From assembly GCF_002260525.1 (NCBI RefSeq), contig NZ_MRYI01000003.1:186001-250000 (forward strand): 64,000 nt of DNA, written 5' to 3'. Below the pieces are notes generated by a model. It made no database searches. It was not told the DNA's origin and saw only the letters and a list, made by a program, of their open reading frames with translations. Below, in pieces: positions 28,236 to 45,391 of this stretch; the first letter of the stretch is position 1, and each line of letters starts with the position of its first letter. The stretch is from Hahella sp. CCB-MM4. GTDB taxonomy: Bacteria; Pseudomonadota; Gammaproteobacteria; Pseudomonadales; Oleiphilaceae. Position numbers and translations under genes: made by a program.

Positions 28236-30314
28236 TTACTGAAGGAGTGACAACACCTGTTGCGGTCTCGCGTTGGCCTGAGCCAAAATCGAGATACCAG
28301 CCTGTTGCAGTACTTGAGCTCGTGACAGAGAAGCGGTCTCTGACGCAAAGTCTGCGTCAAGGATCCGGGACTTCGCAGAGCTCAGGTTCTCATTGGTTGC
28401 TTCCAGGTTAGAGATAGTGTTCTCAAACCGGTTCTGGATGGCACCCAGTTCCGCCTGCTTGGAAGTGATGGTCTGCAATGCGTTGTCGACAGCCAACACA
28501 GCAGCTTCAGCACCTGCAGCAGTCGTAATATCGAGATCTCCCAGTGCCGTTCCGGTTTCACCGTTACCGAACGATCCGATACGGAAGCCCGCTACGTCTA
28601 CATTACCAGTATTCGAGCCGACTTCGATACTACCACCGGACAACAGAGTGATACTGGAAGCATAGGTAGTGGATAGAATACCAGTGAATGATGAGCCGCC
28701 TGAGAGGTCAATGTTGCGACCATCAGCTGCAACCAAGGTAAAGGAATCGGAATCAAGAGCGACCGCTGTTACCCCGGTTTGACCACTAGCACTGTTAACC
28801 GCATCGATCGTTGACTGCAACTGATCAGCAACAGTATCCGTGGACGAGCTCAGTGATACGTTAACAGTCACACCATTGATCGAGAGGGAATAACTGGATC
28901 CTACAGACAGATCACCTGAATTAATGCGGTTCTCATTCACGACTGCAGTAACGTCAGTTTGATCGGACACCCTGTTGATGGCTGCCGCCTTGGCAATAGC
29001 ACTGGAATCTTCATTAGTGCTGGAATAGGTATCGTCCTTAGTCAGGCTGGGCCCGATAGCCACACCATTTATCACCAGGTCACCGGTGGTCAATGCAGTA
29101 CCTGCGGTCACGTTATCGCCCACTGAACCAGATTGAGTACCACTGAAAGTACCCACTTCGAATCCAGCATTGTCGATATTACCAGTGTCAGAGGTTACGG
29201 CAATGTCACTACCATCTTCACTGATCAGAGTATACGTACCGACATAGGTATTCTGCAGACTGGCCGAGGACAAACTGGATCCAGTTGCGGCCAGACCGAA
29301 TGATGCGGCGGAATCTGCGGCGGTACCACCCAAAGTGATATTACGGCCATCCGCAGACGTCAGCTTGATACCACCTTCGACCGTACCATCAGTGGAGGCA
29401 ACAACACCTGTCAAACCGCTCTTGGCATTAATAGCATCAACGTTAGCCTGGAGATTCTGCTCAACTGAAAACTGAGTAGACTTACTCAAATCAATTTGAA
29501 CGTCGTTTATTGAAATAGTTACAGCTTCTGTGACGGCATCAGCAGTAGTAACACCTGCAAGAACATTCGCGTCTACAACAGCCACTACACCAGTCTGATC
29601 AGACACTTCATTAATGGCTGCAGCCTTGGCGATTGAGCTTGAAGACTCAAATGCAACAGAAGAATTGTCATCAGAACCTACCGAACCACCAATGGATACT
29701 CCGTTAATGACGATATCCCCGGCTACCAGAGCGTCGCCACTAGTTGCGGATCCGGTCAAGGCTGCAGTATCCACTGTAGAAGAGATACCTGCCTGGGTAG
29801 CAGATCCCAAAGTGTCCGCATCCAGTCTACTGATGGATACGGTGACGTTTTCCCCAGCGTTAGCACCGGTTTGGAAAACCGCATTCTGGAAAGAGCCATC
29901 CAACAGTTTCTTACCGTTAAAGTTGGAGTTCTCTGCAACGTTCTGAATCTCTTCAACCAGCTGGTCAACTTCCTGCTGCAATGCATCGCGGTCAACGTCG
30001 GTGTTGGTATCGTTGGCGGACTGCAAAGCCAGCTCACGAATACGCTGTAAGCTGGTAGTAATGGAATTCAATGAACCTTCAGCTGTCTGTGACAGTGAGA
30101 TCGCGTCACCTGAGTTCCGAATGGCTACTGAGGTACCACGAATCTGGGCATCGAAACGGGTTGAAATCGCAAGACCCGCCGCGTCGTCTTTTGCACTGTT
30201 GATACGCAGACCAGAAGACAGCCTTTGCAGCGCAGTATCCTGGGCACTTTGAGACTTGTTCAGGTTTCGCTGCGCATTCAGTGAAGCTATGTTGGTGTTG
30301 ATTATTTGAGGCAT
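28236..30314 (-). CDS. fliC: Flagellin 1, large form
   Basis: The 692-residue protein has the canonical flagellin ends: MPQIINTNIASLNAQRNLN with RLSSGLRINSAKDDAAGLAI at the start, and LSRAQVLQQAGISILAQANA to QVLSLLQ at the end. The exposed middle (about 180-590) contains two related modules, each opening with a GD(I/L)VINGV segment followed by SSAIAKAAAINxVSDQT, about 200 residues apart. A sigma-28 promoter is about 105 bp upstream. It is paralogous to flagellin 2 at 33035-35110. Confidence 0.96.
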   Translation of the reverse strand: MPQIINTNIASLNAQRNLNKSQSAQDTALQRLSSGLRINSAKDDAAGLAISTRFDAQIRGTSVAIRNSGDAISLSQTAEGSLNSITTSLQRIRELALQSANDTNTDVDRDALQQEVDQLVEEIQNVAENSNFNGKKLLDGSFQNAVFQTGANAGENVTVSISRLDADTLGSATQAGISSTVDTAALTGSATSGDALVAGDIVINGVSIGGSVGSDDNSSVAFESSSSIAKAAAINEVSDQTGVVAVVDANVLAGVTTADAVTEAVTISINDVQIDLSKSTQFSVEQNLQANVDAINAKSGLTGVVASTDGTVEGGIKLTSADGRNITLGGTAADSAASFGLAATGSSLSSASLQNTYVGTYTLISEDGSDIAVTSDTGNIDNAGFEVGTFSGTQSGSVGDNVTAGTALTTGDLVINGVAIGPSLTKDDTYSSTNEDSSAIAKAAAINRVSDQTDVTAVVNENRINSGDLSVGSSYSLSINGVTVNVSLSSSTDTVADQLQSTIDAVNSASGQTGVTAVALDSDSFTLVAADGRNIDLSGGSSFTGILSTTYASSITLLSGGSIEVGSNTGNVDVAGFRIGSFGNGETGTALGDLDITTAAGAEAAVLAVDNALQTITSKQAELGAIQNRFENTISNLEATNENLSSAKSRILDADFASETASLSRAQVLQQAGISILAQANARPQQVLSLLQ

Positions 30315-33034: not shown

Positions 33035-35110
33035 ATGCCTCAAGTAATCAATACCAATCTCGCTTCTATAAATGCGCAAAGAAATTTGAACGCAAACCAA
33101 GGAGCATATGAGACTGCATTGCAACGGCTATCGTCCGGTTTACGCATCAATTCCGCTAAAGACGATGCCGCCGGTCTGGCCATCTCAACACGCTTCACCT
33201 CGCAGACTCGCGGTCTGACAGTTGCCATTCGGAATGCCGGAGACGGCGTATCCCTGGCACAAACCGCTGAAGGTGCGCTGGGAGCGATGACGGAAAACCT
33301 GCTGCGGATTCGCGACCTGGCATTGCAGTCAGCCAACGCGACCAACAGCTCAATTGACCGCGAAGCCCTGAACTCAGAGGTGGACCAATTGCTGGCTGAG
33401 ATCAAGCGGGTATCCGATCAGACCAACTTCAACGGCACCAAACTGCTGGACGGCACCTTCACTGATGTCACCTTCCAGATAGGTCCCAACGAAGGGGAAA
33501 GCGTTACCTTCGGCATTGAAGGCGCAACTGTCGATAAACTCGGGGCTGCTGATACCGACGGGATCAGCTCAGACGGTCAATCAGAAGCTGAAGGCACCGC
33601 TGCTGCTCTGCAGGCGGGCGACTTGGTTATCAACGGTTTTGCCGTCGGAGCTTCCAGTGGCGTTGACGATGCATTCTCCAGTGGTGATCAGGACCAAAGC
33701 GCCATTGCCAAGGCAGCAGCCATTAACGATGTGTCTGATCAAACCGGCGTTACCGCTGTCGTTAACGGCACCTTTGTCGGCGGTTCAACCAGCTTCACAA
33801 CGACAACCCAGTCAGCCAGCATCACGTTGAATGGAGTATCCATTAACCTCTCCATATCTTCACTGCTGTCAGACCAGGTTAACCTTGAAAACGTGGTCAC
33901 GGCCATCAACGAGGTCTCCGGCCAAACAGGTATTACCGCCGATTTCAGCGGTAACCCTGATACCGGCGTCAGCCTGGCTGCAGCGGATGGTCGCAACATC
34001 ATCATCCAAAGTACTTCATTGAATACCACGGTATTCGGTTTGCCGGGCTCCGACACTACTGCAGCGGCAGCCTCCTTTACCTATGTGGGGACTTATACCC
34101 TGATCTCCAGTGACGGTACTGATATCGAACTTGATACCAATACCGGCGACATTGGCAATGCAGGCCTGTCAGTAGGCACCTATAGCGGTAATAACAGCGG
34201 CGCAATAGGCGATGAAGTTCCAGCAACCGACATGGTCGCAGGTGATCTGGTTATTAACGGCGTACCTGTGGGACCATCGCTGGACAATTACGATACGTCT
34301 TCCTTTGCGAACCGGTCTGAATCCGCTATCGCCAAGGCGGCGGCGATTAACCTCGTGAGTGAGCAAACCGGCGTTACCGCGACGGCAAACTCTACCCTGG
34401 TCACTGCCGGCACCATTACTACCGGTAGTACCAACTCGGGCAGCATCACTATTAACGGGGTGCAGATCAATATTTCCTACGGGTCGAATGACTCTGTAGC
34501 AGACAAGCAGCGTACGATTGTTACAGCCATCAACAACAAATCCGGACAGTCCGGTGTCACCGCGGAAGCGTTTGGTAACACCTTCAGACTGATCGCTGAC
34601 GATGGTCGAAATATCAGCATCAGCAATATTTCAACTTTCGGCGCAAACCAGATCGGGCTGGCGACGACTCAGACTCTGGCCCAGGCCTCCATCGCGCTGA
34701 TTTCAGCCGGTGAAATAGAGCTGTCCACCTTGACGGGTAACATCAGTAATTCAGGCTTCGGTATCGGGACCTTCGGCTCCAACGAAACCGGACAGTTGAT
34801 TCAGGATATTGATATCTCCACCGTAGACGGGGCCATCCTGGCGCTAAGTGCAGTTGATAATGCGTTGAATACCATTAACTTCCAGCGAGCCAATCTGGGT
34901 GCTATCCAAAACCGGTTTGAATCGACGATCAGTAACCAGCAGATTGCCATTGAAAACCTGAGTGCAGCCAACAGCCGAATTAGGGATGCCGACTTTGCCG
35001 AAGAAACAGCCAACCTGTCCAAAGCACAGGTACTGCAATCTGCCGGCTTGTCGATCCTCTCGCAGGCAAATGCACAGCCACAACAGGTTCTGCAGTTACT
35101 GCAAGGGTAA
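33035..35110 (+). CDS. Flagellin 2, large form
   Basis: The 691-residue protein starts MPQVINTNLASINAQRNLNA and ends NLSKAQVLQSAGLSILSQAN to QVLQLLQG, with RLSSGLRINSAKDDAAGLAI between. Its middle repeats the flagellin 1 design, with GDLVING segments near residues 195 and 403, each followed by SAIAKAAAIN. The ends are close to those of flagellin 1 and the middle has drifted. An AAGGGGAAAG Shine-Dalgarno precedes the ATG. It is divergent from maf and is read before a methyltransferase gene. Confidence 0.95.
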   Translation: MPQVINTNLASINAQRNLNANQGAYETALQRLSSGLRINSAKDDAAGLAISTRFTSQTRGLTVAIRNAGDGVSLAQTAEGALGAMTENLLRIRDLALQSANATNSSIDREALNSEVDQLLAEIKRVSDQTNFNGTKLLDGTFTDVTFQIGPNEGESVTFGIEGATVDKLGAADTDGISSDGQSEAEGTAAALQAGDLVINGFAVGASSGVDDAFSSGDQDQSAIAKAAAINDVSDQTGVTAVVNGTFVGGSTSFTTTTQSASITLNGVSINLSISSLLSDQVNLENVVTAINEVSGQTGITADFSGNPDTGVSLAAADGRNIIIQSTSLNTTVFGLPGSDTTAAAASFTYVGTYTLISSDGTDIELDTNTGDIGNAGLSVGTYSGNNSGAIGDEVPATDMVAGDLVINGVPVGPSLDNYDTSSFANRSESAIAKAAAINLVSEQTGVTATANSTLVTAGTITTGSTNSGSITINGVQINISYGSNDSVADKQRTIVTAINNKSGQSGVTAEAFGNTFRLIADDGRNISISNISTFGANQIGLATTQTLAQASIALISAGEIELSTLTGNISNSGFGIGTFGSNETGQLIQDIDISTVDGAILALSAVDNALNTINFQRANLGAIQNRFESTISNQQIAIENLSAANSRIRDADFAEETANLSKAQVLQSAGLSILSQANAQPQQVLQLLQG

Positions 35111-35197
35111 TTGAATCCAGGGGAGTTCAGTAGGACTCCCCCCTACCCGCAACCAACTCATAAACAGCAGCAGATTGTCAGCCCAGGAGTTGCCAGC

Positions 35198-37216
35198 ATG
35201 ATTCAGTCAAAACTATCAACCGCTCCGACTATTCCATCATCGGACTATGTGATTATCGAAAACCTGCTGGGTGAAGCTCACGCGGCGTTGCTTGATTCAA
35301 CAGTATCCTCAAGAACACCTGCTGAAAAAGCCAATCTGCTGCAGAACGTCAAACGTTATGCCGAAGATGTTCTGGCCATGGACGAACAGAATCCCGAAGC
35401 TCATCACATGCTTGCACTGAGCCATACCCTGCTTGGAGAATCCGGCCGCGCCAAAAAACACATGGCAGTGGTATCGGAGACGTCTGAACCAAGTCATACG
35501 TTGTTGCTTGAACAAGCCCATATTGACCTGGCGGCAAGGCATTACAACAAAGCGGAAAGCAAATTCCTGCAAGTGCTGGCAGAAGACAAACACAACGCCG
35601 AGGCTTTCCTGGGCATTGCAATACTGCATCAGAAAAGGAAAGACTGGGCCGGTGCGTTCCTGCGCTACCATTCCCTGATGACCAAAGGTTACTTCAACCC
35701 GACCGTTCTTACAGGACTGACAGCCGTCATCCCTCATATTGTGGCGGACCAGTGGAATCAGGAATACGAAACGACGCTATTGACGGCTCTGCGCTGTGAC
35801 AGTGTCGACACCCAGGCTTACTCCGGGTTTGCCAACTCCCTTTTGATTCAGAAGTATGCGCTGGATCATGAGGAGTCCAAACTGGACTTTGTACAACTCA
35901 TAGAAGATGAGCTGCTACTCAGGGTCATCAGTTTCCGGCTGATCTCCACACCTGAAGTTGAAAACCTGGTCACCCTGCTCCGGCAAACCCTACTGATTCA
36001 GGCAGCGTCCGAAGGTGACCTTCCCGACTCACTACAGGATTGGGTTCTGACCATTGGAGAAGCGGCGGCTCACTACGGGTACTGCTGGCCTACCAATGAT
36101 CAGGAAGACATGATTCTCAGCAGTCTTGCCTCCGCCATACAGACAACGGCCAGAGATAGAGCCTCTACCCTCGACGATCTGATTGGGGCGTTGATGCTAT
36201 ACGGCATGTACGAAGAGCTCTACAGCTCACCTATGAGTTTTCAGCTGCTCAAGCACGATCTGGAAGACTGGCCTGCCGGGATACAACCTCTGCTCGCAGA
36301 GTCCCTCTATGAGCCCAGCCAGTTGCACGCCACCGAGGTGGAGTTGAGACAGGTCATCCATAATTCCAGTCAGTCTGACACCTATTTTCGCTCCGTCATG
36401 CAGGTATATCCCAAGTGGTCACAGATTCACAGTGGCGACGTGGGCTCCGCGATGCAGACTCTGACAGCCGCATTCGGTGATAGTCTCCCCTGGAACAATA
36501 GCCGCATGCGTCCGCTGAATGTATTAATCAGTGCTTGCGGTACCGGACAGGGAGCATTGCAGCAGGCCGCCCAATACCACGACATCAACGTGGTCGGTGC
36601 AGACTCCAGAATGGCACATCTCGCATTCGCGGAATATCAGGCCCGCAACCTCGGCATCGATAACGTCAGATGGGTTCAATGCTCCGAGAATAAACTAACC
36701 TGCCTGAACCAACGCTTTGATATTGTAGAGTGGTCTTCCCTGCTGAATCACTCTGAAGATATTGCCGACACTCTTAATTACCTCAAAAAACTGGTATCCG
36801 GGATTGGCGTCATCAAGGTACAGGTAGAATTGAATCAGGAGCGTCTGGAAGAGAACACTCTCAAAGCATTGACGTCCGGCAATAATCTTGCCCCCGAGCT
36901 GCCCACCATCAGGGCAATTAGACGCTCAATGGCTGAAGACAATGCAGACTCGCAATGGCAGCAAATTCTCCAGAGACCTGAGTTTTACTTTGCCGGTGGC
37001 TGTATGGAGATGTTTTTTGGACCTGAATACAAGGCACAGGAAGCAAAAACTCTGGACGAATTGATCAGTTCAGCCGGTCTGTCCATTGTCGGTATCATCG
37101 ACTGGCAATCCAGTACAATCAGCCATCTGAAAAATCTGGTGACCTGGGAAGCATCACAGCCTTTAAGCAAGGAAATGCCGAAGGCCATCACCATTTACCT
37201 GAAGCAGAATCAATAA
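35198..37216 (+). CDS. TPR-repeat protein with C-terminal methyltransferase-like domain
   Basis: The start is the ATG giving MIQSKLSTAPTIPSSDYVII, with CAGGAGT nine bases upstream; an earlier TTG directly after the flagellin stop is less likely. Of 672 residues, about 1-180 contain TPR-like helices (AEDVLAMDEQNPEAHHMLAL). Residues about 420-600 hold a class I SAM-binding fold (LNVLISACGTGQGALQQAAQ, then VVGADSRMAHLAFAE and FDIVEWSSLLNHSED). A small C-terminal domain follows. Similar proteins occur in flagellin or glycan modification loci. Its position after flagellin 2 suggests flagellin or glycan methylation. Confidence 0.7.
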   Translation: MIQSKLSTAPTIPSSDYVIIENLLGEAHAALLDSTVSSRTPAEKANLLQNVKRYAEDVLAMDEQNPEAHHMLALSHTLLGESGRAKKHMAVVSETSEPSHTLLLEQAHIDLAARHYNKAESKFLQVLAEDKHNAEAFLGIAILHQKRKDWAGAFLRYHSLMTKGYFNPTVLTGLTAVIPHIVADQWNQEYETTLLTALRCDSVDTQAYSGFANSLLIQKYALDHEESKLDFVQLIEDELLLRVISFRLISTPEVENLVTLLRQTLLIQAASEGDLPDSLQDWVLTIGEAAAHYGYCWPTNDQEDMILSSLASAIQTTARDRASTLDDLIGALMLYGMYEELYSSPMSFQLLKHDLEDWPAGIQPLLAESLYEPSQLHATEVELRQVIHNSSQSDTYFRSVMQVYPKWSQIHSGDVGSAMQTLTAAFGDSLPWNNSRMRPLNVLISACGTGQGALQQAAQYHDINVVGADSRMAHLAFAEYQARNLGIDNVRWVQCSENKLTCLNQRFDIVEWSSLLNHSEDIADTLNYLKKLVSGIGVIKVQVELNQERLEENTLKALTSGNNLAPELPTIRAIRRSMAEDNADSQWQQILQRPEFYFAGGCMEMFFGPEYKAQEAKTLDELISSAGLSIVGIIDWQSSTISHLKNLVTWEASQPLSKEMPKAITIYLKQNQ

Positions 37217-37380: not shown

Positions 37381-38217
37381 GTGGATAGAAAGGCCATTCA
37401 ATCCCACTGGCAAAATTGGGCAGAAACCTACCGCGATTCATTGCGGGCAACCACAAAAACCAGCTCGATCAAGGCACTGGAGATTGATGCTTTGCGCCGG
37501 GCGATACTGGGAAGCCCGCTGCATAACAACGAAAACCTGAAAGTTCTGGAAGTCGGCTGTGGCAATGGCTACAACTGCCTCAGCCTGTTGCAAAGTTTCC
37601 CCGGGGCGGACATTACCGGAGTGGATTTTGTCCCCGAAATGGTCGACCACGCCCGGGAAAATCTTTCGCAACAGGACAAGTCTCTCGGCAACCAATTGAG
37701 ATTTCTCGTCGGCGATGTACTCCAGTTAGATGAACACCCCGAACTTGCCGCAAGTTATGATGTGGTATTTACCGACAGATGCCTCATAAACCTTCCAACC
37801 CAGGAAATGCAGGAGCAAGGGCTCATCCAGCTGTGCAGGAAGGTCAACCAGGACGGCATCCTGCTGTTAATTGAGAACCAGACCCAAACCCATGGCAATC
37901 AGAACAGATTGCGTGAAGCTCTGGGCATGGACGCCAGAAAGGCAGCCGAGTTCAACCTGTTTATGGATCAGGCAAAGCTGATAAAAACCGTGGAAAGCCA
38001 AGGCTTCAAGCTCCAGGATATTGATCATTTCGCCAGCCTTCACGACATCCTGCTATATGTACTGGTCCCCTTTATGAATGGCGGCCAGGTGGATTACGAC
38101 GCCCCAATCGTTCATGCCGCGACGGAACTACTCCTGAAAGCCCAGCAGGATACTCCTCATGGTTTTGGAGATTATGGACAAAACCCGCTGTTCATTTTCT
38201 CGCGAACGGAACAATGA
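37381..38217 (+). CDS. Class I SAM-dependent methyltransferase
   Basis: A GTG start with AGGAC upstream gives 278 residues. The SAM-binding motif is LKVLEVGCGNGYNCLSLLQ near residue 53, with ADITGVDFVPEMVDHAREN and FLVGDVLQLDEHP following. It lies 13 bp before the HAD-NUDIX gene in the nonulosonic-acid locus, so methylation of a flagellar sugar or its carrier is likely. The substrate is unknown. Confidence 0.8.
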   Translation: MDRKAIQSHWQNWAETYRDSLRATTKTSSIKALEIDALRRAILGSPLHNNENLKVLEVGCGNGYNCLSLLQSFPGADITGVDFVPEMVDHARENLSQQDKSLGNQLRFLVGDVLQLDEHPELAASYDVVFTDRCLINLPTQEMQEQGLIQLCRKVNQDGILLLIENQTQTHGNQNRLREALGMDARKAAEFNLFMDQAKLIKTVESQGFKLQDIDHFASLHDILLYVLVPFMNGGQVDYDAPIVHAATELLLKAQQDTPHGFGDYGQNPLFIFSRTEQ

Positions 38218-38230
38218 TATTTGGTACGCA

Positions 38231-39550
38231 ATGACTCCCAGGCCTGGTGTTATTTTTGATTTCGACGGTGTCATCGCAGACTCCCTCCCGCTGCTATATC
38301 AAAAATATGAAGAGTTGTTGGCTGGCTATGACAAAACAGCAACTCGTGCTGAATTTTCCAGCCTTAACGGCGCGAAAGTATCTGAAATTGCCGCCAGACT
38401 GGTGGCTGCACACAAATTAAATGTTTCGGCAGAAGATGTCGCAGAACGGTTCAAAGAGGCTATTGCCAAAGTGCCTCAGCAACTGACCATGACAAAGGGC
38501 GCCTTGGATACCCTTCATACACTAAGGTTCTTGAACATTCCAATCGCATTAGCGACTGCATCTTCAAAAGATTATTTTTCGCCTTTCCTGCACCGGAACG
38601 GCATTGAGCAATATTTTAGCGCCATTATTTCAGGGGATGACGTCAAGGTTGCCAAACCTGCTCCTGACATATACCAACTGGCGATATCCCGTTTGCAGAC
38701 GGAAGATAACTGGGTAATTGAGGATGCCCGGGCGGGAATCATTTCAGCCAATCTGGCAGGGGCAAAGAGTCTCTGGTTGTCAAACCCCTGGGAATCCGGT
38801 GAAGCAGAAACACTGGCGCAGGAAACACTTGAAAGACTCCCCTCTCTAGCTCCGCGGATTCTGGGACTCGAAGTAACCGCCATCGAGCTGGTGGCACTGA
38901 GCAAGCAAATTCGCATAAGACCTATCGAGCAACCTTATATCCCGACACTCGTCATCAAAGATTCAGAGGACCTCTGGCAACAGAGCCTTCAGGAAAACCC
39001 CAACCTTTTTGACAGTACTATCAGCGTTTACCATTCACACTTCTGGGAAGAAGATGTACTGGTGATTAACGTTCAGCCTGGAAGATACCGCGACTTCTAT
39101 CTTGCGAGAAAGGCGGGGAATCCATTTCCAGCGCTGGGAGTCAATGGAGTGATGAGAGATACCCATCCTGACAGTATCCTTATCGGCAAGCGATCAGTCA
39201 CCTGCACCGAGTATCCCGGCGCTTGGGAAACCGTCCCGGCTGGCGGGATACCCTACGATAGCCCGGACTGGCAGGCTGCCATTATTCAGGAAGCGATAGA
39301 GGAAACGACGGTTCAGGAAGAGAACATCAAACAAGTAGAGGCTGTCGGACTCTTTCTGGATAAACACCATGGGGTCTATGATGTGGTTTGTACGTTAAAG
39401 ACGGACGACTTATCAAAGCTCAAAGCCCGTGAAGAATATCAACACCTGGAGACTGTAAATATCATGTCCAGTCAGATACCCGAGCAGTGGGTCCCCCTCT
39501 CAAATGCTGTACTAAAAGTTTTCCAGTGGATGAACCAATATGGCCTTTAA
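38231..39550 (+). CDS. HAD phosphatase-NUDIX hydrolase fusion
   Basis: The start is the ATG giving MTPRPGVIFDFDGVIADSLP (439 residues). The N-terminal HAD domain (about 1-215) has DFDGVIADS with the nucleophile Asp, ATASSKDYF, KPAPDIY with the Lys, and VIEDARAGI. The C-terminal part (about 240-435) looks like a NUDIX hydrolase: FPALGVNGVMRDTHPDSIL, then AGGIPYDSPDW leading into QEAIEETTV, where the metal-binding Glu residues of REUxEE are kept but Arg and the final Gly are not. It overlaps pseI by 11 bp. In a locus without pseG, such a fusion could cleave UDP-sugar to sugar-1-phosphate and then dephosphorylate it. That role is a hypothesis. Confidence 0.8.
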   Translation: MTPRPGVIFDFDGVIADSLPLLYQKYEELLAGYDKTATRAEFSSLNGAKVSEIAARLVAAHKLNVSAEDVAERFKEAIAKVPQQLTMTKGALDTLHTLRFLNIPIALATASSKDYFSPFLHRNGIEQYFSAIISGDDVKVAKPAPDIYQLAISRLQTEDNWVIEDARAGIISANLAGAKSLWLSNPWESGEAETLAQETLERLPSLAPRILGLEVTAIELVALSKQIRIRPIEQPYIPTLVIKDSEDLWQQSLQENPNLFDSTISVYHSHFWEEDVLVINVQPGRYRDFYLARKAGNPFPALGVNGVMRDTHPDSILIGKRSVTCTEYPGAWETVPAGGIPYDSPDWQAAIIQEAIEETTVQEENIKQVEAVGLFLDKHHGVYDVVCTLKTDDLSKLKAREEYQHLETVNIMSSQIPEQWVPLSNAVLKVFQWMNQYGL

Positions 39551-40598
39551 AAACACCGTCACCATTAACGGCAGAACTCTCGGTAACGGGCACCCTCCCT
39601 ACATCATTGCAGAACTGTCGGCTAATCATAACGGCAGCCTTGAACGCGCCCTCAGCATCATCGACATGGCCCACAGGTGTGGTGCGGACGCGATAAAACT
39701 GCAAACCTATAAGGCTGACACCATTACCTTTGACAGCGACAAAGAAGACTTTCAGATCCACGGTGGCCTGTGGGACGGCAAGACCCTGTATGAGCTCTAT
39801 GAGTGGGCTCATATGCCCTGGGATTGGCACAAGCCGCTCTTCGAACACGCACGCAAACTGGGAATCACTATTTTCAGCTCCCCGTTTGATGACACGGCGG
39901 TGGATCTATTGGAAGACCTGGGAGCGCCGGCATACAAGATTGCCTCTTTTGAAGCGATCGACTTACCTTTGATCCGTTACACGGCATCAACAGGAAAACC
40001 CCTGATCATATCCACCGGTATGGCGACAGAAGATGAAATTCAGGAAGCCGCTGCGGCCGCTGCAGATGCCGGTTGCCAGGAGCTAGTGCTGCTTCATTGC
40101 GTCAGCGGCTACCCTGCTCCGGCAGAAGACTATAATCTGCGCACTTTAACTGACATGATGGATCGATATAACTGTCTGGTCGGCTTGTCTGATCACACGA
40201 TTGATAATGCCGCGGCTATCGCCAGTGTAGCCCTTGGGGCCTGCCTTATTGAAAAACATGTCACCCTCGACCGCAAAGGTGGTGGACCGGACGACAGCTT
40301 TTCGCTTGAACCGGATGACCTGAAAATGCTTTGCGAAAGCTCCCGGACCGCATGGCAGGCTCTAGGCAGTGTTGACTACAGTCGCAAAGCCAGTGAGGTT
40401 GGCAATGCCAAGTTCCGCCGCTCACTTTATGCGGTAAAGAACATCCGTAAGGGCGAGCCGTTCACTCTTGAAAATGTCAGAAGCATTCGGCCAGGATTCG
40501 GTCTGGCTCCGAAACACAGAGAAGAAATTCTTGGAAAATCTGCCGCTCACGATATTGAGGCAGGCACGGCACTCAATTGGGATTTGATTGAGCATTGA
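39540..40598 (+). CDS. pseI: Pseudaminic acid synthase PseI
   Basis: The 352-residue NeuB-family synthase has features of the PseI branch: PYIIAELSANHNGSLERAL, DSDKEDFQIHGGLWDGKTLY, KIASFEAIDLPLI, ISTGMATEDEI and the C-terminal antifreeze-like (SAF) domain (VGNAKFRRSLYAVKNIRKGE). PseI condenses 2,4-diacetamido-2,4,6-trideoxy-L-altrose with phosphoenolpyruvate to give pseudaminic acid. It overlaps the HAD-NUDIX gene. Its 3' end is the first unit of a 40-bp tandem repeat. Confidence 0.93.
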   Translation: MAFKNTVTINGRTLGNGHPPYIIAELSANHNGSLERALSIIDMAHRCGADAIKLQTYKADTITFDSDKEDFQIHGGLWDGKTLYELYEWAHMPWDWHKPLFEHARKLGITIFSSPFDDTAVDLLEDLGAPAYKIASFEAIDLPLIRYTASTGKPLIISTGMATEDEIQEAAAAAADAGCQELVLLHCVSGYPAPAEDYNLRTLTDMMDRYNCLVGLSDHTIDNAAAIASVALGACLIEKHVTLDRKGGGPDDSFSLEPDDLKMLCESSRTAWQALGSVDYSRKASEVGNAKFRRSLYAVKNIRKGEPFTLENVRSIRPGFGLAPKHREEILGKSAAHDIEAGTALNWDLIEH

Positions 40599-40676
40599 GG
40601 CAGATACGGCTCTTGATTGGGGTTTAGTTGAGTATTAAACCAGCCACGGCGCTCAATTGGGATTTGATTGGGCAGC
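40557..40676 (+). repeat. Triplicated 40-bp tandem repeat derived from the pseI 3' end
   Basis: Three 40-bp units (40557-40596, 40597-40636, 40637-40676) are imperfect copies. Read on the plus strand they encode EAGTALNWDLIEH, EADTALDWGLVEY and KPATALNWDLIGQR, each followed by a stop codon. Only the first belongs to pseI. The third unit also contains the 3' end of the minus-strand cytidylyltransferase gene. Confidence 0.9.
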
Positions 40677-41393
40677 GCTGAGATAAGCCCTCACCTGCAA
40701 TAAGTCTTCTTCCGTATCAATGTCGAACGATCGACTGCGCGGCATGACATAAGTCAGTAAAGGCTGCGATGTATAGGAACGGGTCTGCCTGAATGCAGCC
40801 ACATCAAGAATATGAATAGCGCCGTTACACCGATAGGCTTTGGGCAATTCCTGGGATTTATGACGCCGGTAGTGAGGAAAGACCGGAAGTGCATTCTGAT
40901 TTTGATCAATCACCCAGGCTGAAAATGGTGAGTGTTCATACTCACTGACACTCATCAGGAATCTGCCGTCGTTCTCGGAGAAAAGCCGGTATGCTTCCTG
41001 TAAATCCTCCGCCGTACGCAATGGGCATGTGGGCAGCAATATCGCCAGAGTTTTGTAGCTTCGTCCCACCTTTTCCAGTTCGTCCAATGCATGCAGTGCC
41101 ACAGCTTCAACACCAGCGGGATCGACAGAGAGCTTTTCCGGCCGAATAAACGGAATTTCCGCACCATAGCCCTTTGCCAGCCCGGCAATATCATCATCTT
41201 CGGTAGAAACAACAATGTCACTGCAAATTCCCGATTCCATCGCGCAATCGACCGCCCGTTGCAGCAGGGTTTTGCCACCCAGGCTCAACACGTTCTTACG
41301 CTTCAGGCGGGTGGAAGCCCCTTTGGCCGGGATCAATGCCAATACGGATTCCTGATTTTTATTACCTTTTGCATTACCTGATGCTTCTTTCAT
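40653..41393 (-). CDS. pseF: CMP-nonulosonate cytidylyltransferase (PseF-like)
   Basis: The 246-residue protein of the NeuA/KdsB class has VLALIPAKGASTRLKRKNVL with the CTP-binding loop, IVVSTEDDDIAGLAKGYGAE, LLPTCPLRTAEDLQEAY, then the acceptor region PKAYRCNGAIHILD and the final RSFDIDTEEDL. It activates a nonulosonic acid as its CMP derivative. The symbol follows from the pse context; specificity for Pse over another nonulosonate is not proven. Its last residues (AAQSNPN) are read from the antisense strand of the pseI-derived repeat. It converges on pseI. Confidence 0.82.
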   Translation of the reverse strand: MKEASGNAKGNKNQESVLALIPAKGASTRLKRKNVLSLGGKTLLQRAVDCAMESGICSDIVVSTEDDDIAGLAKGYGAEIPFIRPEKLSVDPAGVEAVALHALDELEKVGRSYKTLAILLPTCPLRTAEDLQEAYRLFSENDGRFLMSVSEYEHSPFSAWVIDQNQNALPVFPHYRRHKSQELPKAYRCNGAIHILDVAAFRQTRSYTSQPLLTYVMPRSRSFDIDTEEDLLQVRAYLSAAQSNPN

Positions 41394-41566: not shown

Positions 41567-42643
41567 TTAACGTGTGAGATCAATCCAGTGCAACATATCA
41601 CCGGCTTTCATATCCTGATTCAGAATATGGCCAATCAGATGCTCATGCTCAGTGGGCGGAATGCCATATCCCGGACGCCGGTATTCCACATCGTCTTCCA
41701 CAAGGGCCTGACCTGCCTTCTTATCCACTCGTAGAAAGGCACTTCGCCGAACAGCATCACGTTTTTTGATTTGCTCCGGATGCAGACTTCGACGAGGCTC
41801 GCCCATGGCTGTTTCCAAATCCCGGATGGCTTTAATAAAGGGTTTGAACTGATGAGGTTCAATTGACATGACGTGTTCAACACTGCGGGTCATTCTGTCT
41901 TTGGTAATGGTCTTCTCAACCAGATTTGCTCCGATTGCCACCGCCGCAATGTCCATATCCCAACCCGGTGTGTGATCGGAAAATGCTGCGGGAAATGGAA
42001 ACATCTGCTTTAAGGTGGTAATCATCCGCAGGTTAATGCTGTCCAGATGAGCCGGATATCCGGAGGGGCATTGGTGGATGATGATGCGATCATTACCTTC
42101 ACTCTGGATCACGTCCACGGCCTGCTCTATATCGCCCAGAGAGGAATTGCCGGTATCCAGCTGAATACACATACCGGTCCGGGCAGCCTGTCGCAACAAA
42201 GGAAAGTGGTTGACATCGGCAGAGGCGATCTTGATTGAATCGCATCCAAATGATTCGAGAAGCCTGATATCCTCTTCAAAACCGATGGTGGAGAAGAACG
42301 CCATATTATGGTCATCCGCCACTTTCTTGACAGCCTTCCATTCATCAGGGGTCAGGCACCGACGAGCCAGAATGTCATAAAGCGGTTCTTCAACAGTTTC
42401 TGTTTCGCCTGTTTCACGATTAACCAGGACGTCGTAGCTGAAAAGCTGTTTCTTATCCGCCACCAAACGGTCAGGATCAAAAATCTGAAACTTGATCGCA
42501 TCTGCTCCGCCCTCAGCAGCAGCCCGGGTCAACTCTATCGCACTTTCCAAACTATCGTGGGTTGGTCCGGCTTCGAAAACGATATAACAGGCACTGCCGT
42601 CACCGATCATCTTATTCTTGATTTGTACGGACATTTGAACCAC
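41567..42643 (-). CDS. Divergent NeuB-family nonulosonate synthase
   Basis: The 358-residue protein shares the NeuB pattern (GGADAIKFQIFDPDRLV, CDSIKIASADVNHFPLL, IQLDTGNSSLGDIEQAV, FSDHTPGWDMDIAAVAIGA, and a C-terminal SAF domain with RRSAFLRVDKKAGQALVEDD). It differs clearly from the pseI product; for instance it has YIVFEAGPTHDSLESAIEL instead of the usual AEL-NH opening. It is a second synthase in the locus, of unknown sugar specificity. It lies 20 bp downstream of pseC in the minus-strand operon. Acetyl or formyl variants of a nonulosonate, or a legionaminate-like sugar, are possible. Confidence 0.85.
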   Translation of the reverse strand: MVQMSVQIKNKMIGDGSACYIVFEAGPTHDSLESAIELTRAAAEGGADAIKFQIFDPDRLVADKKQLFSYDVLVNRETGETETVEEPLYDILARRCLTPDEWKAVKKVADDHNMAFFSTIGFEEDIRLLESFGCDSIKIASADVNHFPLLRQAARTGMCIQLDTGNSSLGDIEQAVDVIQSEGNDRIIIHQCPSGYPAHLDSINLRMITTLKQMFPFPAAFSDHTPGWDMDIAAVAIGANLVEKTITKDRMTRSVEHVMSIEPHQFKPFIKAIRDLETAMGEPRRSLHPEQIKKRDAVRRSAFLRVDKKAGQALVEDDVEYRRPGYGIPPTEHEHLIGHILNQDMKAGDMLHWIDLTR

Positions 42644-42663: not shown

Positions 42664-43824
42664 TTAGTTAATTGAGGATTTTAGTGCCACTGCCACTCGA
42701 TCAAGATCTTCTTCGGACATCGCCGGGAACAGCGGCAAAGACAGCGCTTCCTGGTAATATTGCTCGGCGACCGGAAAATCCCCTTTCGAGAATCCCAACT
42801 TGCTGTAATAAGGTTGAGTATGAATAGGAATATAGTGAATCTGTACGCCAATTCCCTGCCCCCTGAGCCTCTCTACCAATTGTCTCCGGCCTATTTTGAT
42901 CTCATTCAGATCTAGCCTGATGACATAGAGGTGATAGCTGGAAATAACCTGGCTGATAACTTCCAGGGGTGTCACCGGCAAGCTCTGCAAAAGATCATGA
43001 TAGTGCTCTGCCAATTGATTGCGTCTTGCAACCCATTCCCCTAGCCGGGTTAATTGGCTGACACCGAGCGCCGCATGTATGTCAGTCATGCGGTAATTAA
43101 ATCCCAGCTCCTGTTGTTCATAATACCAGGGGCCGTCATTCTGGCTTAGATGCTCAGGATCCTTGGTAATGCCATGACTGACAAACAATCGCATCTTTTC
43201 CGCAAACACAGGGTTATTGGTCACTGCCATACCGCCTTCACCTGAGGTAATAATTTTTACCGGATGAAAACTGAATACGGTGATATCTGAATACTGACTG
43301 CTGCCTACGGGAGCTCCGTGGTACTGCGCCCCCAACGCATGGGAAGCGTCTTCAATGACATAGAAACCATATTCCTGTGCCAACCGACCAATTTCCGCCA
43401 TTTCACACGGTTGTCCGGCAAAGTGAACCGGCACCACCACTTTGGGTAGTTTTCCGTGTTGCCGGGCATGAATCAGCTTTTCCTGCAACCTGTTAACGTC
43501 CATATTGCCCGTATGCAGATCAATATCCACAAAGTCCACAGAGGCACCACAATACCGTGCACAATTGGCAGAAGCCACGAAGGAGTTAGGACTGGTCCAC
43601 AAGTAATCGCCTTCTCCCAGTCCAAGTGCAAGGCAGGCAATATGGAGTGCGGAGGTGCCGCTATTACAAGCGACCGCATGGCTTGCGCCCACTGCGTCAG
43701 ATACACCTCGTTCAAACTCTCCGACTTTCGGTCCCTGGGTCAGAAAATCTCCACGTAATACCTCAGCGACAGCATCAATATCATCCTGTGAAATGAGCTG
43801 CCTGCCGTATGGAATAAATGACAT
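42664..43824 (-). CDS. pseC: PseC, UDP-4-keto-6-deoxy-HexNAc aminotransferase
   Basis: The 386-residue DegT/DnrJ/EryC1 aminotransferase starts MSFIPYGRQLISQDDIDAV. It has ACNSGTSALHIACLALGLGE, VIEDASHALGAQYHG, the PLP-lysine segment FSFHPVKIITSGEGGM and GFNYRMTDIHAALGVSQL. PseC transfers an amino group from glutamate to the 4-keto sugar made by PseB. The pseB stop is six bases upstream. Confidence 0.92.
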   Translation of the reverse strand: MSFIPYGRQLISQDDIDAVAEVLRGDFLTQGPKVGEFERGVSDAVGASHAVACNSGTSALHIACLALGLGEGDYLWTSPNSFVASANCARYCGASVDFVDIDLHTGNMDVNRLQEKLIHARQHGKLPKVVVPVHFAGQPCEMAEIGRLAQEYGFYVIEDASHALGAQYHGAPVGSSQYSDITVFSFHPVKIITSGEGGMAVTNNPVFAEKMRLFVSHGITKDPEHLSQNDGPWYYEQQELGFNYRMTDIHAALGVSQLTRLGEWVARRNQLAEHYHDLLQSLPVTPLEVISQVISSYHLYVIRLDLNEIKIGRRQLVERLRGQGIGVQIHYIPIHTQPYYSKLGFSKGDFPVAEQYYQEALSLPLFPAMSEEDLDRVAVALKSSIN

Positions 43825-43830
43825 AAATAA

Positions 43831-45391
<1,561 letters not shown>

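Follow-up and report, generated by a model that had tools for sequence, protein, structure and literature searches.

A HAD-NUDIX protein encoded beside pseI as a candidate replacement for PseG in nonulosonic acid biosynthesis

A stretch of 64,000 nucleotides from contig NZ_MRYI01000003.1 of Hahella sp. CCB-MM4 (GCF_002260525.1, positions 186,001 to 250,000), referred to here as the window, carries genes for nonulosonic acid (NulO) biosynthesis together with a gene for a 439-residue protein in which a HAD domain is fused to a NUDIX domain. This gene overlaps pseI, the gene for pseudaminic acid (Pse) synthase, by 11 bp. Relatives of the two domains mostly occur where the UDP-sugar hydrolase PseG is not found, and so the pair probably carries out the PseG step by a different chemistry. 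For the family, a PseG bypass by a UDP-sugar pyrophosphatase and a sugar-1-phosphate phosphatase is considered probable. In the window organism it is likely but not secured, and less sure than for the family.

The locus and the HAD-NUDIX protein

Three genes follow each other on the forward strand of the window, a methyltransferase gene, the HAD-NUDIX gene and pseI, with a gap of 13 bp and then the overlap (Table 1). A preliminary description of the window had reported the fusion and its overlap with pseI, and both are borne out by open reading frame (ORF) calls and by Pfam and TIGR03586 scores. The HAD-NUDIX frame is open to 39550 and its longest ORF starts at 38159 (463 residues), but the start at 38231 agrees with the homologue in locus L004, which is discussed below. 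The pseB, pseC and pseI genes that had been named in the window score over the NCBIfam cut-offs, and the cytidylyltransferase named with them lies under the cut-off for PseF.

Table 1. Features of the locus and the PseG-like domain elsewhere in the genome (window positions unless another locus is named)
Feature	Position	Strand	Basis and remarks
HAD-NUDIX fusion, 439 aa, proposed UDP-sugar pyrophosphatase and sugar-1-phosphate phosphatase	38231..39550	+	ORF calling, Pfam, L004 homologue
HAD domain, residues 6-182, beta-phosphoglucomutase-like	38246..38776	+	Pfam HAD_2, alignment, PDB matches, clade
NUDIX part with N-terminal extension, possibly NUDT22-like	38864..39547	+	Pfam NUDIX core at residues 302-383; Foldseek and VIA on a low-confidence model
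Nudix box GGIPYDSPDWQAAIIQEAIEET	39242..39307	+	Alignment of 11 relatives
pseI, pseudaminic acid synthase	39540..40598	+	TIGR03586, 515 bits, over NCBIfam cut-off; 11-bp overlap with the fusion
SAM-dependent methyltransferase	37381..38217	+	13 bp upstream of the fusion; homologues adjoin the pair in L004, L104 and L120
TPR and methyltransferase protein	35111..37216	+	Homologue with 22% identity in the G062 locus
CMP-NulO synthetase, PseF-like	40653..41393	-	167 bits; PseF cut-off, 205.7, not reached
Second NeuB-family synthase	41567..42643	-	Matches neither the PseI nor the NeuB equivalog; beside pseC
pseC, aminotransferase	42664..43824	-	TIGR03588, 561 bits, over NCBIfam cut-off
pseB, 4,6-dehydratase	43831..44829	-	TIGR03589, 542 bits, over NCBIfam cut-off; start picked by reading, longest ORF from 44886
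Fused CMP-NulO synthetase/PseG-like hydrolase	L097 9630-11288 (own contig C76)		Adjoins NeuB

Both domains of the fusion pass the Pfam gathering thresholds, HAD_2 with 106.2 bits (threshold 23.8) and NUDIX with 26.3 bits (threshold 21.1). The HAD part has the DxD, Ser/Thr, Lys and acidic motif residues of the HAD-IA, beta-phosphoglucomutase-like type, and in an alignment D10, D12, K142, E164 and D165 are retained in all ten HAD proteins of the module. Its PDB structure matches are beta-phosphoglucomutase-type phosphatases such as TM_1254, YniC and the phosphatase domain of MtlD, which share its fold and motifs with about 15-31% identity among the structure alignments listed. The module HADs differ from these in being a separate clade tied to NUDIX. 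In a HAD tree with outgroup loci they group together as one clade (3 of the 79 outgroup loci were omitted because they gave no match or a match that was too short).

The Nudix box of the window protein had been described as degenerate. The full consensus is Gx5Ex7REUxEExGU, and the first Glu, the Arg and the last Gly are lost in the window protein. However, the glutamates E354, E357 and E358 are invariant in all 11 relatives, and the Arg position is occupied by Arg in two of them. The box is therefore non-canonical, as claimed, but throughout the subfamily, and this is not decay of the window copy. A structure model of the whole fusion has a mean predicted local distance difference test score (pLDDT) of 50.9 and is fair in the HAD part only. 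For a low-confidence model of the NUDIX part alone the six best PDB matches are all human NUDT22, over most of the NUDIX length. NUDT22 is described as a UDP-glucose/galactose pyrophosphatase that converts UDP-glucose to UMP and glucose-1-phosphate (PMC10101856). It is the best fold match, but the identity in the structure alignments is 12-17%, the window protein is bacterial, and its NUDIX part is fused to, or in other genomes paired with, a HAD protein near NulO genes.

HAD and NUDIX genes in other genomes

HAD and NUDIX genes of this type were found within 3.2 kb of each other in ten genomes. They are fused in two of these and lie beside pse or other NulO genes in nine of the ten. A chance neighbourhood or an artefact is ruled out by the conservation of the pair in ten genomes. 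A methyltransferase adjoins the pair in four of the ten loci, those of the window, L004, G032 and G564. A collection of 84,980 species was scanned with exact peptides of the fusion, which gave 379 relatives, and among the best 80 that were kept the NUDIX part is present only in L004. Since exact peptides were used and 80 of the 379 relatives were kept, further HAD-NUDIX loci may exist. When the fusion was used as a query against a plasmid collection, none of the 25 records covered 80% of it, and the 15 matches listed are to the HAD part. A NUDIX profile matched 13 of 398 genomes of the phylum. In the neighbourhoods of the 12 others besides the window organism, a HAD gene is near the NUDIX gene in six (G563, G564, G569, G622, G673 and G712), and in G697 the contig ends directly beside the NUDIX gene.

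L004 is a 4.7 kb contig of a Planctomycetota bin and encodes both domains in a protein that is 30% identical to the window fusion. Its gene order is the tail of pseI, a methyltransferase (47% identical to that of the window), HAD-NUDIX, an aldo-keto reductase and a cytidylyltransferase. No PseG match was found in this genome bin. In G062, which belongs to the order of the window organism, the NUDIX and HAD genes are separate, and dehydrogenase E1 and lipoyl-acyltransferase genes lie between them. The pair adjoins a pseI whose product is 62% identical to that of the window, pseF, pseC and pseB on the other strand. At L096 6228-9447, dehydrogenase E1 alpha/beta genes and a gene for a PglD-like acyltransferase with a fused lipoyl domain are part of a pse locus without a recognised PseH. 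The products of these genes may take part in an N-acylation in which the acyl group is donated from a lipoyl-bound form.

The clearest case is G563, a genome in one contig that is 99% complete, which has pseB, pseC, a GNAT-NeuB fusion, pseF, HAD and NUDIX and in which no PseG was found genome-wide. If the GNAT part is PseH, then one canonical step is missing, and HAD and NUDIX are the obvious unassigned pair. Further neighbours in G563 are glycosyltransferases, a PIG-L deacetylase, another GNAT, an LPG-synthase-type membrane protein and a Wzz-type protein. GNAT-NeuB fusions, in which the acetylation and synthase steps are joined, lie at L122 6626-8203 and L126 7877-9457 (reverse strand).

Occurrence of PseG in loci with and without the pair

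Is the presence of the pair linked to the absence of PseG? In the phylum survey, PseC was over the cut-off in 77 of 398 genomes, which were treated as the same 398 genomes that were searched with the NUDIX profile because the sets are equal in size and share handles. The 77 PseC loci were scored with locally built profiles over 10 kb on either side, or less at contig ends. NeuB is present in 54 of the 77 loci, and 47 of these 54 also have PseG. The seven that do not are in G622, G739, G846, G825, G000, G569 and G563. Four of the seven genomes (G622, G000, G569 and G563) hold the HAD/NUDIX pair, which in G622 is on another contig. G739, G825 and G846 were scored as lacking PseG at the PseC locus only, and in G846 a fused ORF gives a weak PseG match of 36.8 bits. 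HAD or NUDIX genes of the pair type were found in none of the 49 PseG-bearing PseC loci. A genome-wide search for PseG in 16 genomes gave matches over the cut-off in two (G032 and G564) and a match under the cut-off in G000.

Among the NUDIX-positive genomes of the phylum set with PseC, one of eight has PseG over the cut-off, whereas in NUDIX-free genomes 47 of the 50 PseC loci that have a NulO synthase close by contain PseG (Fisher p = 3e-6). The p value is 5e-5 if two of eight are counted. Over all 77 PseC loci the comparison is 49 of 69 with one of eight (p 0.002) or two of eight (p 0.016); kinship is uncorrected in all four tests. The 23 PseC loci without a nearby NeuB, among them those of G564, G673, G697 and G712, are outside the count of 47 in 50, and PseG is present in two of them. 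PseG was scored at the locus only for NUDIX-free genomes and genome-wide for NUDIX-positive genomes, which works against the difference found. In six genomes both parts are present and the locus lacks a methyltransferase homologue (G062, G563, G569, G622, G673 and G712); no PseG was found in any of these six, two of which are less than 90% complete. Thus the co-occurrence of the pair with pseI or NeuB and with PseC that had been anticipated was found in other genomes. The anticipated anti-correlation with PseG was also seen, but it is imperfect, as G032 and G564 hold both the pair and a PseG with conserved residues. Strict mutual exclusion as a general rule is ruled out by these two genomes.

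PseG and PseH in the window organism

The assembly of the window organism is 6.66 Mb in 161 contigs and is 100% complete, and the window lies on contig C85. In genome-wide profile searches at E <= 0.001 no PseG or PseH match was found on C85, which agrees with the preliminary description, and the fusion itself was not matched by the PseG model TIGR03590. The canonical gene set for CMP-pseudaminic acid (PseB, PseC, PseH, PseG, PseI and PseF) is incomplete in this genome. PseB, PseC and PseI are over the cut-off, the PseF-like protein and a single PseG-like domain on contig C76 are under it, and there is no PseH match over it. This PseG-like domain forms the C-terminal half of a 552-residue protein with a CMP-NulO synthetase as its N-terminal half, and is followed by another NeuB. 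No PseB or PseC homologue was found in the 80 kb read of the 127-kb contig C76, and PseC is matched once in the whole genome at E <= 1e-100. NeuB-family genes number five in this genome. On contig C1 (L099 7496-10124), after another NeuB gene come a C-terminally extended KdsC-like HAD, a cytidylyltransferase and, at some distance, a DHDPS-like protein, all labelled by reading.

A proposed route to the free sugar

It is proposed that the HAD-NUDIX protein supplies free sugar to the NulO synthase by a route without PseG. The NUDT22-like NUDIX part would cut the pyrophosphate of UDP-2-acetamido-4-amino(acyl)-2,4,6-trideoxy-L-altrose, derived from the action of PseB and PseC, to give UMP and a sugar-1-phosphate. 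The beta-phosphoglucomutase-like HAD part would then take the phosphate off the sugar-1-phosphate, and PseI, whose gene overlaps that of the fusion, would condense the free sugar with phosphoenolpyruvate. The domains, the conserved residues, the linkage across genomes, the single HAD clade and a strong but imperfect exclusion of PseG are observed. From these we infer the substrate, the products, the order of the steps and the reliance of the window organism on the pair rather than on the C76 domain. The chemistry gains support from the match of the low-confidence NUDIX model to NUDT22 and from the HAD part, which is of the sugar-phosphate-phosphatase type. As proposed, the pair would turn a UDP-sugar into free sugar for PseI, which is also the net result of PseG (TIGR03590, UDP-2,4-diacetamido-2,4,6-trideoxy-beta-L-altropyranose hydrolase), and the genomic place is the same. 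However, PseG cuts the bond between sugar and UDP, whereas the pair would first split the pyrophosphate and next remove the phosphate, releasing UMP and phosphate, and the fusion does not match the PseG model.

It is somewhat favoured that Pseudomonadota, and perhaps bacteria beyond them as L004 suggests, have a second, non-homologous class of NulO pathway, in which a bacterial relative of NUDT22 and a dedicated beta-phosphoglucomutase-like phosphatase, sometimes fused, replace PseG via UMP and sugar-1-phosphate. No published proposal of a Nudix or HAD stand-in for PseG was found among the open-licence PMC papers that literature searches listed, judged by title or start of abstract. A precedent for two enzymes carrying out one Pse step is given by Pen and Pal of Bacillus thuringiensis, which are described as performing the step of PseB (PMC5109656); the step and the enzyme types are different. 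For Shewanella oneidensis MR-1, PseB and PseC are reported as detected and PseH, PseG, PseI and PseF as without clear orthologues, and the authors state that further proteins have to be involved (PMC3765264). PseG and PseH are missing from some NulO loci. If the proposal is true, several such pathways would have no gap on paper and could be tested with purified proteins, and predictors that require PseG would miss pathways that use the pair. NUDT22-type UDP-sugar pyrophosphatases would gain a defined biosynthetic role, and the pair may accept N-acyl variants beyond the reach of PseG.

Evidence against the bypass and alternative explanations

Several observations weigh against the bypass. In the window organism the C76 domain reaches 131.7 bits, under the cut-off of 153.55, and has two changes (L to I and D to E) in 15 columns conserved in 46 other PseGs. 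With so few changes, no PseB or PseC homologue in the part of C76 that was read and a single PseC in the genome, this domain could act in trans, judging from sequence. The preliminary description had named a genuine pseG elsewhere in the genome as counter-evidence, and this domain, with a score below the cut-off, is the one PseG-like match. PseH gave no match over the cut-off, which leaves a further canonical step unaccounted for; its best match of 33.7 bits is at the background level of GNAT proteins, as the same search gives hits in 13 of 14 control genomes, one of them over the cut-off. The G032 locus (pseB, pseC, an aldo-keto reductase, PseG, NUDIX, methyltransferase, NeuB and HAD) has the pair, the methyltransferase and a 256-bit PseG together. 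In G564 the NUDIX part is in one frame with SpsF, PseG and GNAT, with HAD and pseI adjoining; the first ~150 residues of this long frame overlap the HAD frame and are probably untranslated. The conserved PseG columns are kept in all 15 positions in G564, and one is changed (L to I) in G032. These two cases and that of the window organism are all of the methyltransferase-bearing subtype to which the window itself belongs. The subfamily is also rare near the window organism. The NUDIX profile matched three of 194 genomes of its order and one of 369 of its class, its own, and a second class-level search of 369 genomes gave the same single genome. HAD or pse genes are absent beside NUDIX in G589, G817, G864, G881 and G887, where neighbours that are not NulO genes include Ppx/GppA, FtsJ, RF3 and S4 families (G881), G6PDH (G864) and a PhzF-like protein (G887). 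These five of the 13 NUDIX-positive genomes also lack a PseC match at E <= 1e-100. G563 and G569 belong to the same genus, and completeness is 87% for G062, 80% for G673 and 71% for G697, with none given for G558. The NUDIX-only model is weak throughout (mean pLDDT 45.4). NUDIX profiles matched the NUDT22 sequence weakly (E 0.07 and 0.76), and NUDT22 was not retrieved by an N-terminal-only NUDIX profile or by a three-sequence profile. The NUDIX of L096 has no Pfam match at E <= 0.01, and those of L096 and L104 have no NCBIfam match at 1e-4. The two-step replacement of PseG put forward in the preliminary description is thus partly supported, by co-occurrence and anti-correlation, but it is weakened by the imperfect exclusion and by the C76 domain.

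The presence of PseG in the methyltransferase-bearing G032 and G564 suggests that here the pair may handle a modified second sugar beside PseG, and for this reason the bypass is not secured in the window organism. In its general form this idea makes the pair an extra branch that, with the methyltransferase, handles a UDP-sugar that is methylated or carries a different N-acyl group and is destined for a second NulO; the ordinary NulO would then depend on PseG (the C76 domain, or the PseG of G032 and G564). PseG and the pair are found together at L104 and L120, both of which have the methyltransferase, and the window, with a methyltransferase adjoining the fusion and two NeuB-family synthases, would fit two NulOs. 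Such a branch is considered unlikely. The six pair genomes without a methyltransferase homologue show no PseG, so that a PseG-like function is needed there, and the neighbours in G563 and G569 are of the polysaccharide type. In the NANS/NANP and KDN routes a NulO-9-phosphate phosphatase works after the synthase, and the HAD part could have this role, with NUDIX as a house-cleaning pyrophosphatase. HAD genes overlap NeuB or PseI genes in L104, L122, L123 and L126. However, the 4,6-dehydratase PseB and the aminotransferase PseC should give a sugar without a 6-OH and hence a product without a 9-OH. Because both are encoded in the window locus, a 6-deoxy sugar is favoured over a 6-phosphorylated substrate. 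A phosphatase acting after the synthase would also account neither for the constancy of the NUDIX partner nor for the missing PseG step, and it is very improbable.

It is also doubtful, though somewhat less so, that the pair builds a decoration of the NulO, for example an acyl group, and that PseG is replaced by an unrelated hydrolase that has gone unrecognised. Methyltransferases, formyltransferases, PIG-L deacetylases and the lipoyl-acyltransferase occur near the pair in one or other locus, and S. oneidensis is reported to make a methylated moiety on Pse without clear PseG or PseH orthologues (PMC3765264). The decorating neighbours vary by locus, whereas HAD and NUDIX are constant, and no other common unassigned enzyme was noticed in the loci, although no systematic search was made.

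Neighbouring genes

Two flagellins of about 690 residues are encoded at 28236-30314 (reverse strand) and 33035-35110 (forward strand), on either side of a 712-residue Maf-like protein. Since two flagellins and a Maf-like protein surround the pse genes, the locus looks like a flagellin glycosylation island, with the flagellin and Maf labels assigned by reading. The frame of the TPR and methyltransferase protein begins right after the stop of the second flagellin. At L120 2965-6426 a frame of 1153 residues adjoins pseI and joins NUDIX, an SpsF-like cytidylyltransferase, PseG and GNAT.
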